From Shimia sp. Alg240-R146 (GTDB lineage: Bacteria > Pseudomonadota > Alphaproteobacteria > Rhodobacterales > Rhodobacteraceae), in the NCBI RefSeq assembly GCF_947331465.1, contig NZ_CAMZOK010000002.1, positions 434,001 through 498,000 on the forward strand: 64,000 nt of DNA, in the 5' to 3' direction. Numbering within the stretch: the stretch's first letter is position 1; the number at the start of each line of letters is the position of its first letter. Shown one piece after another: positions 46,453 to 60,416 of this stretch. Under the pieces are notes generated by a model. That model ran no database searches. It saw only the letters and a list, made by a program, of their open reading frames with translations, and had not been told where the DNA came from. Made by a program: the position numbers and the translations under genes.

Positions 46453-46899
46453 ATGGCTAAAGCAGCAACCGACGCCACCGCATTCCTGAAAGACATGATG
46501 GGCGCGTTTCCAGTCGACACATCCGCTTTTGAAGGCGCGTTCCAGAACACAGCGTCGCTGAACGAAAAGCTGACCGGTGTTGCCCTGACCGCCGCCGAGA
46601 AATCTTCGGAAATCTCGTCCAAGTGGACCAAAGACACCATCGCCAAGCTGACCGACATGTCCAAAGCCAAGGCAGAGCCAGCTGACTACGCCAAAGCAAT
46701 GACCGACTTTGCATCTGCTCAGGCAGAAGTGGCAGCGGAAAACATGGCGGCCTTCGCTGAAGTTGCGAAAAAAGTTCAGATGGAAACTGTTGAGCTGCTG
46801 ATGGCGGCTGGCAAAGACGCAACTGAAGAAGCAACTGCCGCTGTGAAAAAGGCCACTGACGAAGTGACCACCGCAGCGAAAAAAGCGACAACCAAGTAA
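46453..46899 (+). CDS. phaP: Phasin (PHA granule-associated protein)
   Basis: A 148-residue, mostly helical, Ala/Lys/Glu-rich protein beginning MAKAATDATAFLKDMMGAFPVDTSAFEGAF, with a phasin-type core (NEKLTGVALTAAEKSSEISSKWTKDTIAKLTDMSKAKAEPADYAKAMTDFASAQAEVAAENMAAFAEVAKKVQMETVELL) and a lysine-rich tail. It coats PHA granules and controls their size. Start ATG 46453 has AGGA eight bases before it. It follows two PhaR sites and is closed by a strong terminator, so its expression is independent of phaC and phaR. Confidence 0.94.
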   Translation: MAKAATDATAFLKDMMGAFPVDTSAFEGAFQNTASLNEKLTGVALTAAEKSSEISSKWTKDTIAKLTDMSKAKAEPADYAKAMTDFASAQAEVAAENMAAFAEVAKKVQMETVELLMAAGKDATEEATAAVKKATDEVTTAAKKATTK

Positions 46900-46947
46900 T
46901 TTGGCGCTGATCTAGCACACGATCCTCCCCAGTTGTGCAGATCGCGT

Positions 46948-46978
46948 GGGCAGGCCTTTGGCCTGCCCTTTCTGTTTT
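46948..46978 (+). terminator. Intrinsic terminator after phaP
   Basis: GGGCAGGCC-ttt-GGCCTGCCC forms a perfect 9-bp stem followed by TTTCTGTTTT. Confidence 0.95.
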
Positions 46979-47047
46979 CAGTGCTATCTTTTTATTCTGC
47001 AAGCGCATAAGCTTTTTCGGCAGTGCAATATTTCTGGGGAGAGTGCA

Positions 47048-57470: not shown

Positions 57471-58205
57471 TCAAGGTGCGGGCGGAATGGGTACTGCCAG
57501 ATAGGCCGTCTGGCGGATGTCGACGATGTCATGCAGATGCAGCACGTCGCGGTCTGCTGGCGAGAGGTCGAAAATCGCGCGTGACATGGCGTTGGACAAC
57601 GGCATGGGGTCGCGTTTGAGTGCTGTAATAAAGGGCAGCGCGGGTGTGGGCGTGGTGCGCTCGACTTCGATCAAATCCGCTGCATATTCTTCGTAGCGGC
57701 GGATCATTTCCCAGCTGAGCGCGTCCAGCGCGGCAAAATCGGTGAAGCCATCCGCCACTGACCGACCCGATTCGACGTGTGAACCGGTTTCACGCAGCTC
57801 TCCGATTCGCAGGCCGTTGTCTTGAAAATGCTGATAGGGCGCGGCCCAACCGGATTGGGAAAGCGGGTCGTTGAAAGCCATCTTGGCGCCATCAAACGCG
57901 GTGATCGGCTCACCTGCGCGGGAGCGGTGGGCTACAATGACCGAGTTGTAGTAACCGGGCTGGCAGCCATACAGGCGATAGTCGGGCGTGCCGACCAATT
58001 TCACCCGCCCATGCAGTTTGGAGCGGTAGGGCAGCCCGCAGGTTTGGGCGATCACAAGATCGGGGTCTTGCCAAATGTCCCAAACATCCCGCCCACGGGT
58101 CAGACGAGATGGACCGAATCCGAGATGGTCGCGCACGGCCTCCCAAAATCGGTTGTTGGCCTCGGCAGTTTCCGGCCTGTCATACATTGGCAAGGCAGCG
58201 ATCAT
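57471..58205 (-). CDS. PhnD-like substrate-binding domain protein
   Basis: A 244-residue protein similar to the phosphonate/phosphite-binding PhnD family: IAALPMYDRPETAEANNRFWEAVRDHLG, PDLVIAQTCGLPYRSKLHGRVKLVGTPDY, GYYNSVIVAHRSRAG and AFNDPLSQSGWAAPYQHFQ. No signal peptide is evident, so it may be cytosolic or start differently. Its ATG overlaps the stop of the TerB-like gene upstream (ATGA). No ABC permease is adjacent. Ligand unknown. Confidence 0.8.
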   Translation of the reverse strand: MIAALPMYDRPETAEANNRFWEAVRDHLGFGPSRLTRGRDVWDIWQDPDLVIAQTCGLPYRSKLHGRVKLVGTPDYRLYGCQPGYYNSVIVAHRSRAGEPITAFDGAKMAFNDPLSQSGWAAPYQHFQDNGLRIGELRETGSHVESGRSVADGFTDFAALDALSWEMIRRYEEYAADLIEVERTTPTPALPFITALKRDPMPLSNAMSRAIFDLSPADRDVLHLHDIVDIRQTAYLAVPIPPAP

Positions 58206-58642
58206 TTACTGGCAGCCACCCGTTGGCGCGCCAGAGCACTGTCTTTGTCGTTGATGCCCAACAGATTTGCCGACAGGCGCAACAGCGCGTCTTCTTCGGC
58301 GTCGCGCTGTCCGTCTGCCAGCGCCACGGACCACATTGCCTCGATCACTGCGATGCGGTCATCATGGGCCACGGCGTCTTTGATGGCGCGGGTAAAGCGC
58401 ACGGTGTCTGGCGCCTCGGACTCAAGGGTTTCAGCGTCGCGCATGAGGGTTTGCGCATCCGCCGCATCAAGAGCGTAGCGTTCAGTGACAATGCGCTCGA
58501 TGCGCGCGGCTTCAGCACTGCTGTAGTGATTGTCAGCCCGCGCAATGCGCACCAAGAGCGCCGTTAACGCCAAGCGGGCGTCGGTTTGATCCAGCGGGTC
58601 GGGGGCGGGGGCTGTGAGCCGTTTCAAAAAATCTGCAAACAT
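58202..58642 (-). CDS. TerB-like protein, copy 1
   Basis: A 146-residue cytosolic helical protein from ATG 58642. The block LALTALLVRIARADNHYSSAEAARIERIVTERYALDAADAQTLMRDAETLESEAPDTVRFTRAIKDAVAHDDRIAVIEAMWSVALADGQRDAEEDALLRL is a TerB/DjlA-type domain, with acidic residues that can bind metal. It is clearly paralogous to the protein at 59991-60416. Its stop overlaps the PhnD-like gene. Function unknown. Confidence 0.82.
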   Translation of the reverse strand: MFADFLKRLTAPAPDPLDQTDARLALTALLVRIARADNHYSSAEAARIERIVTERYALDAADAQTLMRDAETLESEAPDTVRFTRAIKDAVAHDDRIAVIEAMWSVALADGQRDAEEDALLRLSANLLGINDKDSALARQRVAASK

Positions 58643-58687: not shown

Positions 58688-59379
58688 TTAAGGCCGGCGG
58701 TGTTTCGCGGTGGCATCTTCCCAGCCTTTGATCAGGGCGGCGCGTCGGCCGGGGTATGTGTCAGGCAGAACCTGCAGGTCTGTGACGCGGTCGGTACGGA
58801 AATGGCGGTAGTCCTGACGGGTTTCGCACCAGGCCACGATATAGCGGGCGCCGCCAAGGTAGGCGATCAGTAGCGGCCATATGGTGCGCGCGGACACAGA
58901 ACCTGTCTGATCACGGTAGAACAACTGCAGCCGATAGCGGTTGCGGATCGCGTGGCGAAGGCTGTGGCTGTCAAACGCGTCTGGTTTTGGCGCGTCGGTG
59001 GCGATCGGGCGGCTGCTTGCGTCCAAGATGACAGGCCGCAAGTCGTCGGGAATGGCCTCAGAGAGTTTGGCGACCAGATCGCGGGCGGCTGTGGCAAGCG
59101 ACGGGTCTGCCTGTGCCGCCACTAGAGCCGCGCCAAGCGCTGCGGCTTCCAACTCATCCGCTGTGAGCATCAGAAGCGGCATGTCGTAGCCGTCTTGCAG
59201 AACATAGCCGGTGCCGGCCTCACCCAAAATGGGACGCGTTGCGCCGTAAGTTCCGCCATATCGCGATAAAGCGTGCGGAGAGAGACTTCGAGTTCTTCTG
59301 CAAGGCGCGCTCCTGTCACTGGCGCCCTCGAGGAACGCAATATCTGGATAATCTGGAACAGACGTTCGGTGCGACGCAT
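58688..59379 (-). pseudogene. YafY-type WYL transcriptional regulator, frameshifted
   Basis: ATG 59379 (AGGAG seven bases upstream) starts MRRTERLFQIIQILRSSRAPVTGARLAEELEVSLRTLYRDMAELTAQRVP, the HTH of a DeoR/YafY-like regulator. In this frame the sequence then turns to nonsense. The family sequence resumes in another frame with ILGEAGTGYVLQDGYDMPLLMLTADELEAAALGAAL and ends in a WYL domain (RNRYRLQLFYRDQTGSVSARTIWPLLIAYLGGARYIVAWCETRQDYRHFRTDRV). The break lies in CCCATTTTGGG at about 59226-59233 and equals one missing base. It is either a true mutation or a sequence error. Confidence 0.85.
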
Positions 59380-59388
59380 TTTTGTCTC

Positions 59389-59423
59389 CTGCTGACACAC
59401 TGCTGACATAACGCTGTCAGCAG
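59389..59423. promoter_or_regulatory. Triple half-site operator of the WYL regulator
   Basis: CTGCTGACA occurs at 59389-59397 and again at 59400-59408. The second is the left arm of a perfect inverted repeat with TGTCAGCAG (59415-59423) across six bases. The direct copies are 11 bp apart. The group lies between the frameshifted regulator (start 59379) and the divergent SRPBCC gene (59489), where an autoregulator would bind. Confidence 0.75.
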
Positions 59424-59488
59424 GGCAAGGATATCCAAGGCTGAGACACAGTTTGTGAAGGCCGGGAAAGGCCGGGAAGGGAAAGACA

Positions 59489-59959
59489 ATGTTGAAGATT
59501 GAGCGGTCATTGGAGATTGATGCGACGCCGGAGCAAGTCTGGGCAGTGATGGGGCGGTTCAAGCACATTGACGCGTTCGCATCAGAGGTCGCGCGGGTTG
59601 AGGCATTGACGAGTGGCGAGGATCAGGTGGGGTCGCAGCGGCGCTGCCATTTCAACAATGGGCAGACGTTGGTGGAGACGGTTACCGCCTGGGATGCGGG
59701 CCGTGGCTATACCGTGGCGCTTTCGGAGATGGGCTCGATGCCGATGTCGGCGGCGAGTGCGGTGTTGCGGATTGAACCGGTTGGCAACAAGGCACGCGTT
59801 GTGTGGGGTTTTGAAGGGCGGATGAAATTTGGCCCGCTTGGGTGGCTTATGGGGCAGCTGATGCTGAAGCCGATGATGGGCAAAGCGATTGCCGCCAGTT
59901 TGAAAGGGCTGGCCGAGCAGGTGAGCAAGGCTCCCAAAATCGTCAACGCGGTCGCCTGA
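59489..59959 (+). CDS. SRPBCC (START-like) family protein
   Basis: A 156-residue protein with a polyketide-cyclase/SRPBCC fold: MLKIERSLEIDATPEQVWAVMGRFKHIDAFASEVARVEAL, QVGSQRRCHFNNGQTLVETVTAWDAGRGYTVALSEMGSMP and FEGRMKFGPLGWLMGQLMLKPMMGKAIAASLKGLAEQV. These bind hydrophobic ligands in a cavity and may act on or carry them. It is divergent from the frameshifted WYL regulator and is the likely target of its operator. Confidence 0.88.
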   Translation: MLKIERSLEIDATPEQVWAVMGRFKHIDAFASEVARVEALTSGEDQVGSQRRCHFNNGQTLVETVTAWDAGRGYTVALSEMGSMPMSAASAVLRIEPVGNKARVVWGFEGRMKFGPLGWLMGQLMLKPMMGKAIAASLKGLAEQVSKAPKIVNAVA

Positions 59960-59990: not shown

Positions 59991-60416
59991 TCAATCGTCC
60001 GCGGGGCTGTCTTCGGGGTTGATGCCGAGCATGGCCTCGATTTCGTGCAGGCTGGTGAGTTCCGCGGAGACGCGGGCGCCGTCAGCGATGATCACCTGCC
60101 AGAGCTGCTGTGCGACCTCAAGACGGTGCGGGTAATCGATGTGTTCGCGGATCATCAGCGCGAAGTCTGGTGTGCCCGGCGCGGCGGCTTCGAGTTTTTC
60201 GCAGGTCGCCCGCATCTTGGCGGACTCGACGGCATTCAGGCCATAAGTGGCCCCTAGGATGCGGTCGATTTCGCCGATTTCCATAGCGTGATAGTTGTTG
60301 TCGGACTTAGCCACCCGCACCATGAGCGCCCCAAGGGCGAGTTTTTCGTCCAACTCAGGCAGCTCTTGCTGTGCGGGTTTGTTTTTTATGCGTTCAAGCA
60401 GGCTGTCCCAGATCAT
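59991..60416 (-). CDS. TerB-like protein, copy 2
   Basis: A 141-residue protein from ATG 60416, which overlaps the TGA of the DUF1330 gene (ATGA). The core LALGALMVRVAKSDNNYHAMEIGEIDRILGATYGLNAVESAKMRATCEKLEAAAPGTPDFALMIREHIDYPHRLEVAQQLWQVIIADGARVSAELTSLHEIEAMLGINPEDS aligns over its length with copy 1 at 58202-58642, ending in the shared LGIN-x-x-DS. The two are tandem-type paralogues separated by the WYL/SRPBCC pair. Confidence 0.85.
   Translation of the reverse strand: MIWDSLLERIKNKPAQQELPELDEKLALGALMVRVAKSDNNYHAMEIGEIDRILGATYGLNAVESAKMRATCEKLEAAAPGTPDFALMIREHIDYPHRLEVAQQLWQVIIADGARVSAELTSLHEIEAMLGINPEDSPADD

Follow-up and report, generated by a model that had tools for sequence, protein, structure and literature searches.

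The locus lies in a 64,000-nucleotide stretch of the genome of Shimia sp. Alg240-R146 (the window; source genome 4.19 Mb in 6 contigs) and comprises a minus-strand HTH_11-WYL regulator gene whose frame is broken near 59223-59236 by the lack of one base, a divergent SRPBCC gene, and, between the two, three 9-bp half-sites that form a candidate operator (Table 1). The HTH frame opens with an ATG at 59379 (minus) and stops at 59170, and the WYL half, read in another frame, shares 89% identity with the intact protein of Shimia sp. SK013. In an alignment with the SK013 ortholog, the window lacks exactly one base between helix-turn-helix and wing, and this gap lies immediately 5' of CCCATTTTGGG (59223-59233, minus). 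The HTH and WYL domains, contiguous in the genus orthologs, share no single open reading frame in the window; with PF08279 and PF13280 matched in different frames and the alignment one base short, the initial annotation of a WYL regulator disrupted by one missing base is borne out. Intact orthologs comprise approximately 230 amino acids, of which some 20-25 residues remain after the WYL match, where a C-terminal WCX extension of the CapW/BrxR/DriD type would lie. Structure prediction for the SK013 ortholog from its sequence alone was uninformative (mean pLDDT 37.3).

Table 1. Features of the regulator/SRPBCC locus, in window coordinates.
Feature	Position	Strand	Basis
Regulator 3' half, other frame: wing remnant and WYL, to stop	58688..59233	-	PF13280, E 1.7e-14
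Regulator 5' half, HTH_11, 69 aa then stop	59170..59379	-	PF08279, E 3.2e-14, profile positions 1-45 of 55
Parting point of the two frames; one base short relative to intact orthologs	59223..59236	-	Alignment and frames
Operator arm3, CTGCTGACA; direct repeat of arm2, 11-bp period, ends 9 nt before the regulator ATG	59389..59397	.	
Operator arm2, CTGCTGACA; perfect 9-bp dyad with arm1, 6-bp spacer	59400..59408	.	Sequence search
Operator arm1, CTGCTGACA on the regulator strand (TGTCAGCAG at 59415)	59415..59423	.	Sequence search
-10-like TATCCT (TAnnnT) of the regulator promoter; T 10 bp from arm1	59428..59433	-	Conservation
Divergent SRPBCC gene	59489..59959	+	Polyketide_cyc2, E 1.7e-22

If the break is real, the 69-residue product keeps the recognition helix and lacks both the wing and the WYL domain, so it should be inactive and should not regulate, leaving the operator orphaned. 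The WYL frame itself remains open upstream to a GTG within the operator (58688-59398, minus), a chance open reading frame of 236 codons.

Comparison with close strains, which the initial annotation had proposed, identified a regulator ortholog in 10 of 24 genus-mates, with 66-89% identity over the WYL half, and all 10 of these Shimia orthologs read in one frame where the window is one base short. Across the wider set of ortholog loci, HTH and WYL occupy a single frame at 87 of 88. The exception, L068 (positions 2380-2500; Pseudovibrio denitrificans JCM 12308), is split by one extra base approximately 16 bp upstream of the equivalent point, a shift opposite in sign to that of the window, and its operator is intact despite the split; this second split could be a draft error or a sign of tolerated loss. 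The suggestion that the window's shift is programmed, yielding the full protein from the split gene, draws on the long overlap of the two frames and on the constraint acting on both halves, but none of the genus orthologs needs such a shift, the L068 copy would need one of the opposite sign, and by inspection the overlap contains no canonical X XXY YYZ slippery heptamer. Because the split is not kept in relatives in the same direction, this candidate was rejected as scarcely credible.

Sequence divergence past the break indicates ongoing constraint. Between the window and SK013, dN/dS is 0.129 in this part of the gene, compared with 0.085-0.175 for pairs of intact genes with measurable synonymous distance, and lineage-specific residue changes number five in each of the two. 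The HTH half differs by seven synonymous and no nonsynonymous changes, and the SRPBCC gene has a dN/dS of 0.118. Both halves of the regulator are therefore evolving as coding sequence, and the break is either recent or an assembly error. That the deficit arose in sequencing or assembly, the cell possessing a normal regulator, could equally be right or wrong: coding constraint is full on both sides of the break, a single species genome is affected, no further damage has accumulated, and the operator and SRPBCC gene are intact. Against this, 64 SK013 genes match within the window and 58 of them are covered over at least 90% of their length in one frame, which indicates a record with few indels. 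Of the other six, two are at the window edges, one falls just below 90%, one matches only weakly and locally, one is ambiguous in its 5' part, and the last is this regulator, the only clean split; no widespread assembly trouble was seen among the 64, and a very recent true mutation would look alike. Such a mutation, with the regulator lost and the SRPBCC gene constitutively on or off, is judged a shade short of evenly balanced. It accords with a clean split amid few other indels and with the L068 split near the same place and of opposite sign, which would mean that loss may be tolerated; an excess of amino-acid change is not observed, however, and both split copies could be errors. The frameshift alone matters little beyond its warning that the record may hold a natural null or an error.

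Elsewhere in the window, TerB-domain genes at 58202-58642 and 59991-60416 (minus) lie on either side of the regulator/SRPBCC pair, both on one strand, and resemble duplicated neighbours. At 46885, a one-base length difference from SK013 falls in an A run of the open reading frame 46460-47008 (minus), and the SK013 match there splits into two frames.

The operator is the better finding of the two. The half-sites described in the initial annotation were all located, CTGCTGACA at 59389 and 59400 and TGTCAGCAG at 59415, and on the regulator strand they form the layout arm1-N6-arm2-N2-arm3, spanning 35 bp from 59423 down to 59389. With CTGCTGACA occurring 63 times on both strands of the 4.19 Mb genome, a chance cluster of three half-sites within 35 bp is expected approximately 5e-6 times, and the exact pattern CTGACA-N6-TGTCAG occurs once in the genome, at this locus. 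A search of the genome with the 24-bp dyad at up to three mismatches returned two other places, against two for a reversed control pattern, and revealed no regulon of the three-half-site element elsewhere.

Relatives were scanned as the best 80 of 184, and operator scoring covered 87 of the 88 ortholog loci, L068 being left out for want of a single-frame start. Within 120 bp upstream of the regulator, the 35-bp layout scores at least 17 of 27 in 83 of the 87 alphaproteobacterial orthologs; loss of half-sites in relatives with an intact regulator, named in the initial annotation as the evidence that would count against the operator, was looked for and is not the pattern found. The operator usually ends approximately 9 nt before the regulator start codon and starts exactly 44 nt before it in 52 rows. 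Letter counts were confined to rows whose operator lies between -52 and -42 (54 of 59 rows of the Arg type, defined below by residue 35), with L117 and L021 left out of these counts and of the arm-to-arm comparison. In the 54 Arg-type rows, T2, T5, G6, C8, and A9 of arm1 and the letters T, G, C, A, and G of arm2 show little or no variation, and the central letter varies, being A or C in arm1 and T or G in arm2. When the dyad alone sets the placement, 55 of 61 Arg-type rows have an arm3 that agrees at six or more of its nine letters, a level reached by 1.15% of 15441 control 9-mers. These comparisons support a real operator with three half-sites, predicted in silico and kept by relatives with an intact regulator.

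Beside the operator, the -10-like TAnnnT is fixed: its T is conserved in 53/53 Arg-type and 22/22 Ser/Ala-type rows, and its A in 47/53 and 22/22, respectively. The predicted transcription start of the regulator therefore falls inside arm1. An operator over the transcription start is the usual place for autorepression, and the position of this one over the regulator's own start region suggests that the regulator may repress itself. A different account would place the three arms in the mRNA leader, where arm1 pairs with either arm2 or arm3 as an RNA switch, without a protein operator. In that arrangement arm3 overlaps the ribosome-binding site; the leader hairpins are predicted to be stable, that of the window reaching -18.3 kcal/mol with arm1 and arm2 paired (z -2.7) and those of L044, L045, and L072 pairing arm1 with arm3. 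Yet complementarity at the variable core position holds for arms 1 and 2 in just 35 of the 54 Arg-type rows, and for arms 1 and 3 in 22 of them. All three arms, moreover, vary at the same central letter and keep the letters around it constant, a pattern resembling that of a protein site. Dyads of the wider family also lie far from regulator starts, heading other genes, and, with the transcription start placed inside arm1 by the -10-like box, arm1 would be only partly transcribed. An RNA switch is accordingly considered very improbable, and a protein-binding site is the interpretation carried forward.

The letters of this site vary with the regulator. Residue 35 lies in the recognition helix, within the motif S-x-R-T-[LIV]-Y-R-D, and its pairing with the arm1 core base among the 87 loci is Arg/G at 60, Ser/C at 18, Ala/C at 4, and Arg/T at 1, with no operator at 4. 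The Arg/T locus, L117, stands at a poor operator placement, and the four operator-less loci all carry Arg. In the Ser/Ala types, CTCTCA occupies arm1 in 22 of 22 rows and arm3 in 20 of 22; arm2, between them, is CTGTCA in 18, equal to the number of Ser loci, and CTATCA in 4, equal to the number of Ala loci. Half-site type thus appears to follow residue 35 (Arg35, Ser35, Ala35). In a phylogeny of the protein region that follows the HTH, the Arg/non-Arg distinction requires one change (support 99) and the three states require three; given this single Arg to non-Arg event, the correlation between helix and operator is suggestive, not independently replicated. Core identity in the Ser/Ala types averages 5.91 of 6 for the outer arms (1/3) versus 5.00 for the N6 pair (1/2), a match not readily explained by a simple dimer on arm1 and arm2; the outer arms may form a wide palindrome whose centre is the TGNCA of arm2. 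By mechanical search, no SRPBCC-like divergent open reading frame was found beside the Ser/Ala-type operators of L077, L082, and L066; at L082, a transposase-like open reading frame lies further upstream.

Palindrome binding is usual for WYL factors, and short HTH-WYL regulators with palindromic sites are already known, which narrows the earlier impression that the operator looks new. What stands of it concerns the dyad, the third half-site, and the correlation with residue 35, for which full-text searches of freely accessible papers gave no description. To our knowledge, WYL regulators are abundant in Proteobacteria, but the DNA site has been established for few of them. A conserved dyad found at many of their loci, with a helix residue that varies along with its letters, would, if true, allow WYL targets to be predicted from sequence and cheaply tested.

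Excerpts from the literature on WYL factors offer several points of comparison. CapW, a CBASS-associated WYL repressor, acts as a homodimer on a 19-24 bp imperfect palindrome overlapping the -10 element of the controlled promoter; it shares with the present regulator the HTH and WYL domains and a palindrome over the -10 region next to its own gene, but it controls phage-defence operons and has a WCX domain, and the excerpts describe no third half-site (PMC9122588). BrxR, the WYL regulator of BREX, binds DNA as a dimer whose recognition-helix start, with a conserved SRQQ motif, contacts bases in the region where Arg35 lies here; in the excerpts it differs in its defence context and in being a longer protein with WCX (PMC9122589). 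DriD of Caulobacter, a homodimeric activator responding to ssDNA, is likewise an alphaproteobacterial WYL factor with a pseudo-palindromic site, although the excerpted consensus is ATACGAC-N7-GTCGTAT, as opposed to CTGACA-N6-TGTCAG at this locus, which does not qualify as a DriD site (PMC12340889). SiwR of mycobacteria binds a 19-bp imperfect palindrome between divergent genes and resembles the present case in its detoxification-like divergent neighbours, with a glyoxalase-like (pfam18029) gene at some loci; as excerpted, it is an actinobacterial activator with a DinB/YfiT-like partner (PMC10693628). PafBC, a WYL-family sequence relative of the window's WYL half, differs in the excerpts as a heterodimer with a non-palindromic motif and requires two conserved recognition-helix arginines for function (PMC6789036). 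Residue 35 probably corresponds to one of these two arginines, without which PafBC does not function; since the HTH profile retrieved only NiaR-type matches from the PDB, we infer the residue correspondence to PafB or BrxR.

The divergent SRPBCC gene appears to belong to the same unit. Within the genus, 11 of 25 genomes carry the regulator together with a strong SRPBCC match and the remaining 14 have neither, which fits a single module; a twelfth genome, G015, carries a weak SRPBCC paralog only. The SRPBCC promoter was not placeable from conservation (L117, L021, L020, L023, L024, and L025 left out), so loss of the regulator could derepress the gene, silence it, or do nothing. The proposal that the SRPBCC gene may be derepressed consequently overreaches, since the operator covers the regulator's own start region and the SRPBCC promoter was not located. 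Control of the SRPBCC gene could have either sign: CapW represses, whereas SiwR and DriD activate.

The arrangement favoured here, and considered quite probable, is an autoregulated HTH_11-WYL regulator and a divergent SRPBCC gene served by one three-half-site operator. A dimer would read the inverted pair of arm1 and arm2 (CTGACA-N6-TGTCAG), and a further subunit or second dimer would use arm3, one helical turn away at the 11-bp period. The bound protein would cover the start region of the regulator promoter and block transcription of the regulator, and a signal sensed by the WYL domain would change binding. The SRPBCC gene would likely be controlled from the same operator, with either sign. 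In this genome record, the regulator is split by one base, recently or through assembly error.

A wider set of 82 further WYL-regulator loci, drawn from class and phylum searches and including two that are not independent genomes, extends the dyad beyond these orthologs. Within 150 bp upstream of the regulator, the best CTGACA-N6-TGTCAG match reaches 11 or 12 of 12 letters in 27 of the 82, and the 6-bp spacer is preferred, with 27 upstream regions at 11 of 12 or better versus at most three at any other spacer from 0 to 15. From these upstream counts, L127, L128, L129, L131, L133, L135, L139, and L144 were left out as repeats, and L179, L197, L207, L210, L226, and L230 yielded no regulator by the search motif. 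Some control windows held exact dyads, and the control is raised because several loci carry the dyad further from the regulator, heading a neighbouring gene. The exact dyad occurs within the locus of approximately 3 kb in 33 of the 82, where arithmetic leads one to expect approximately 0.02, and six of the 33 (L201, L204, L205, L206, L208, and L209) come from genomes outside the class. It is absent from the other 49 of the 82, and regulators of the MSRxxRLL type are mostly without it. Across the 25 genus genomes, the exact dyad is found 13 times versus eight for the reversed control; seven of the 13 are this locus and one lies beside another WYL regulator (L253 beside L031).

The partner genes are more changeable. 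Among 85 mechanically chosen divergent open reading frames of orthologs (84 of 86, plus the window's), 47 match Polyketide_cyc2, 18 GST_N_4, and 4 GFA, and among 34 partners in the wider set (33 of 44, plus the window's), 10 are glyoxalase-like and 5 GST_N_4. These families suggest that the partners share a part in dealing with reactive or toxic compounds, and their exchange beside an unchanging regulator and operator suggests a signal common to the loci, either a stress or a toxic compound. A broader proposal, about as readily true as false, holds that a large branch of the short HTH_11-WYL regulators of Pseudomonadota shares CTGACA-N6-TGTCAG as its general operator code and guards small, interchangeable genes of a detoxification-like kind (SRPBCC, GST, GFA, glyoxalase-like). 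The three-half-site element would be the form read by one sub-branch, in which residue 35 would set the half-site letters: CTG(A/C)CA for Arg, outer CTCTCA with middle CTGTCA for Ser, and outer CTCTCA with middle CTATCA for Ala. In the same genome as the window, the WYL paralog L229 (C2:648201-651400) carries TTGACA-N6-TGTCAG 51 nt before its start, matching 11 of 12 letters, so this paralog may read a near-identical site.
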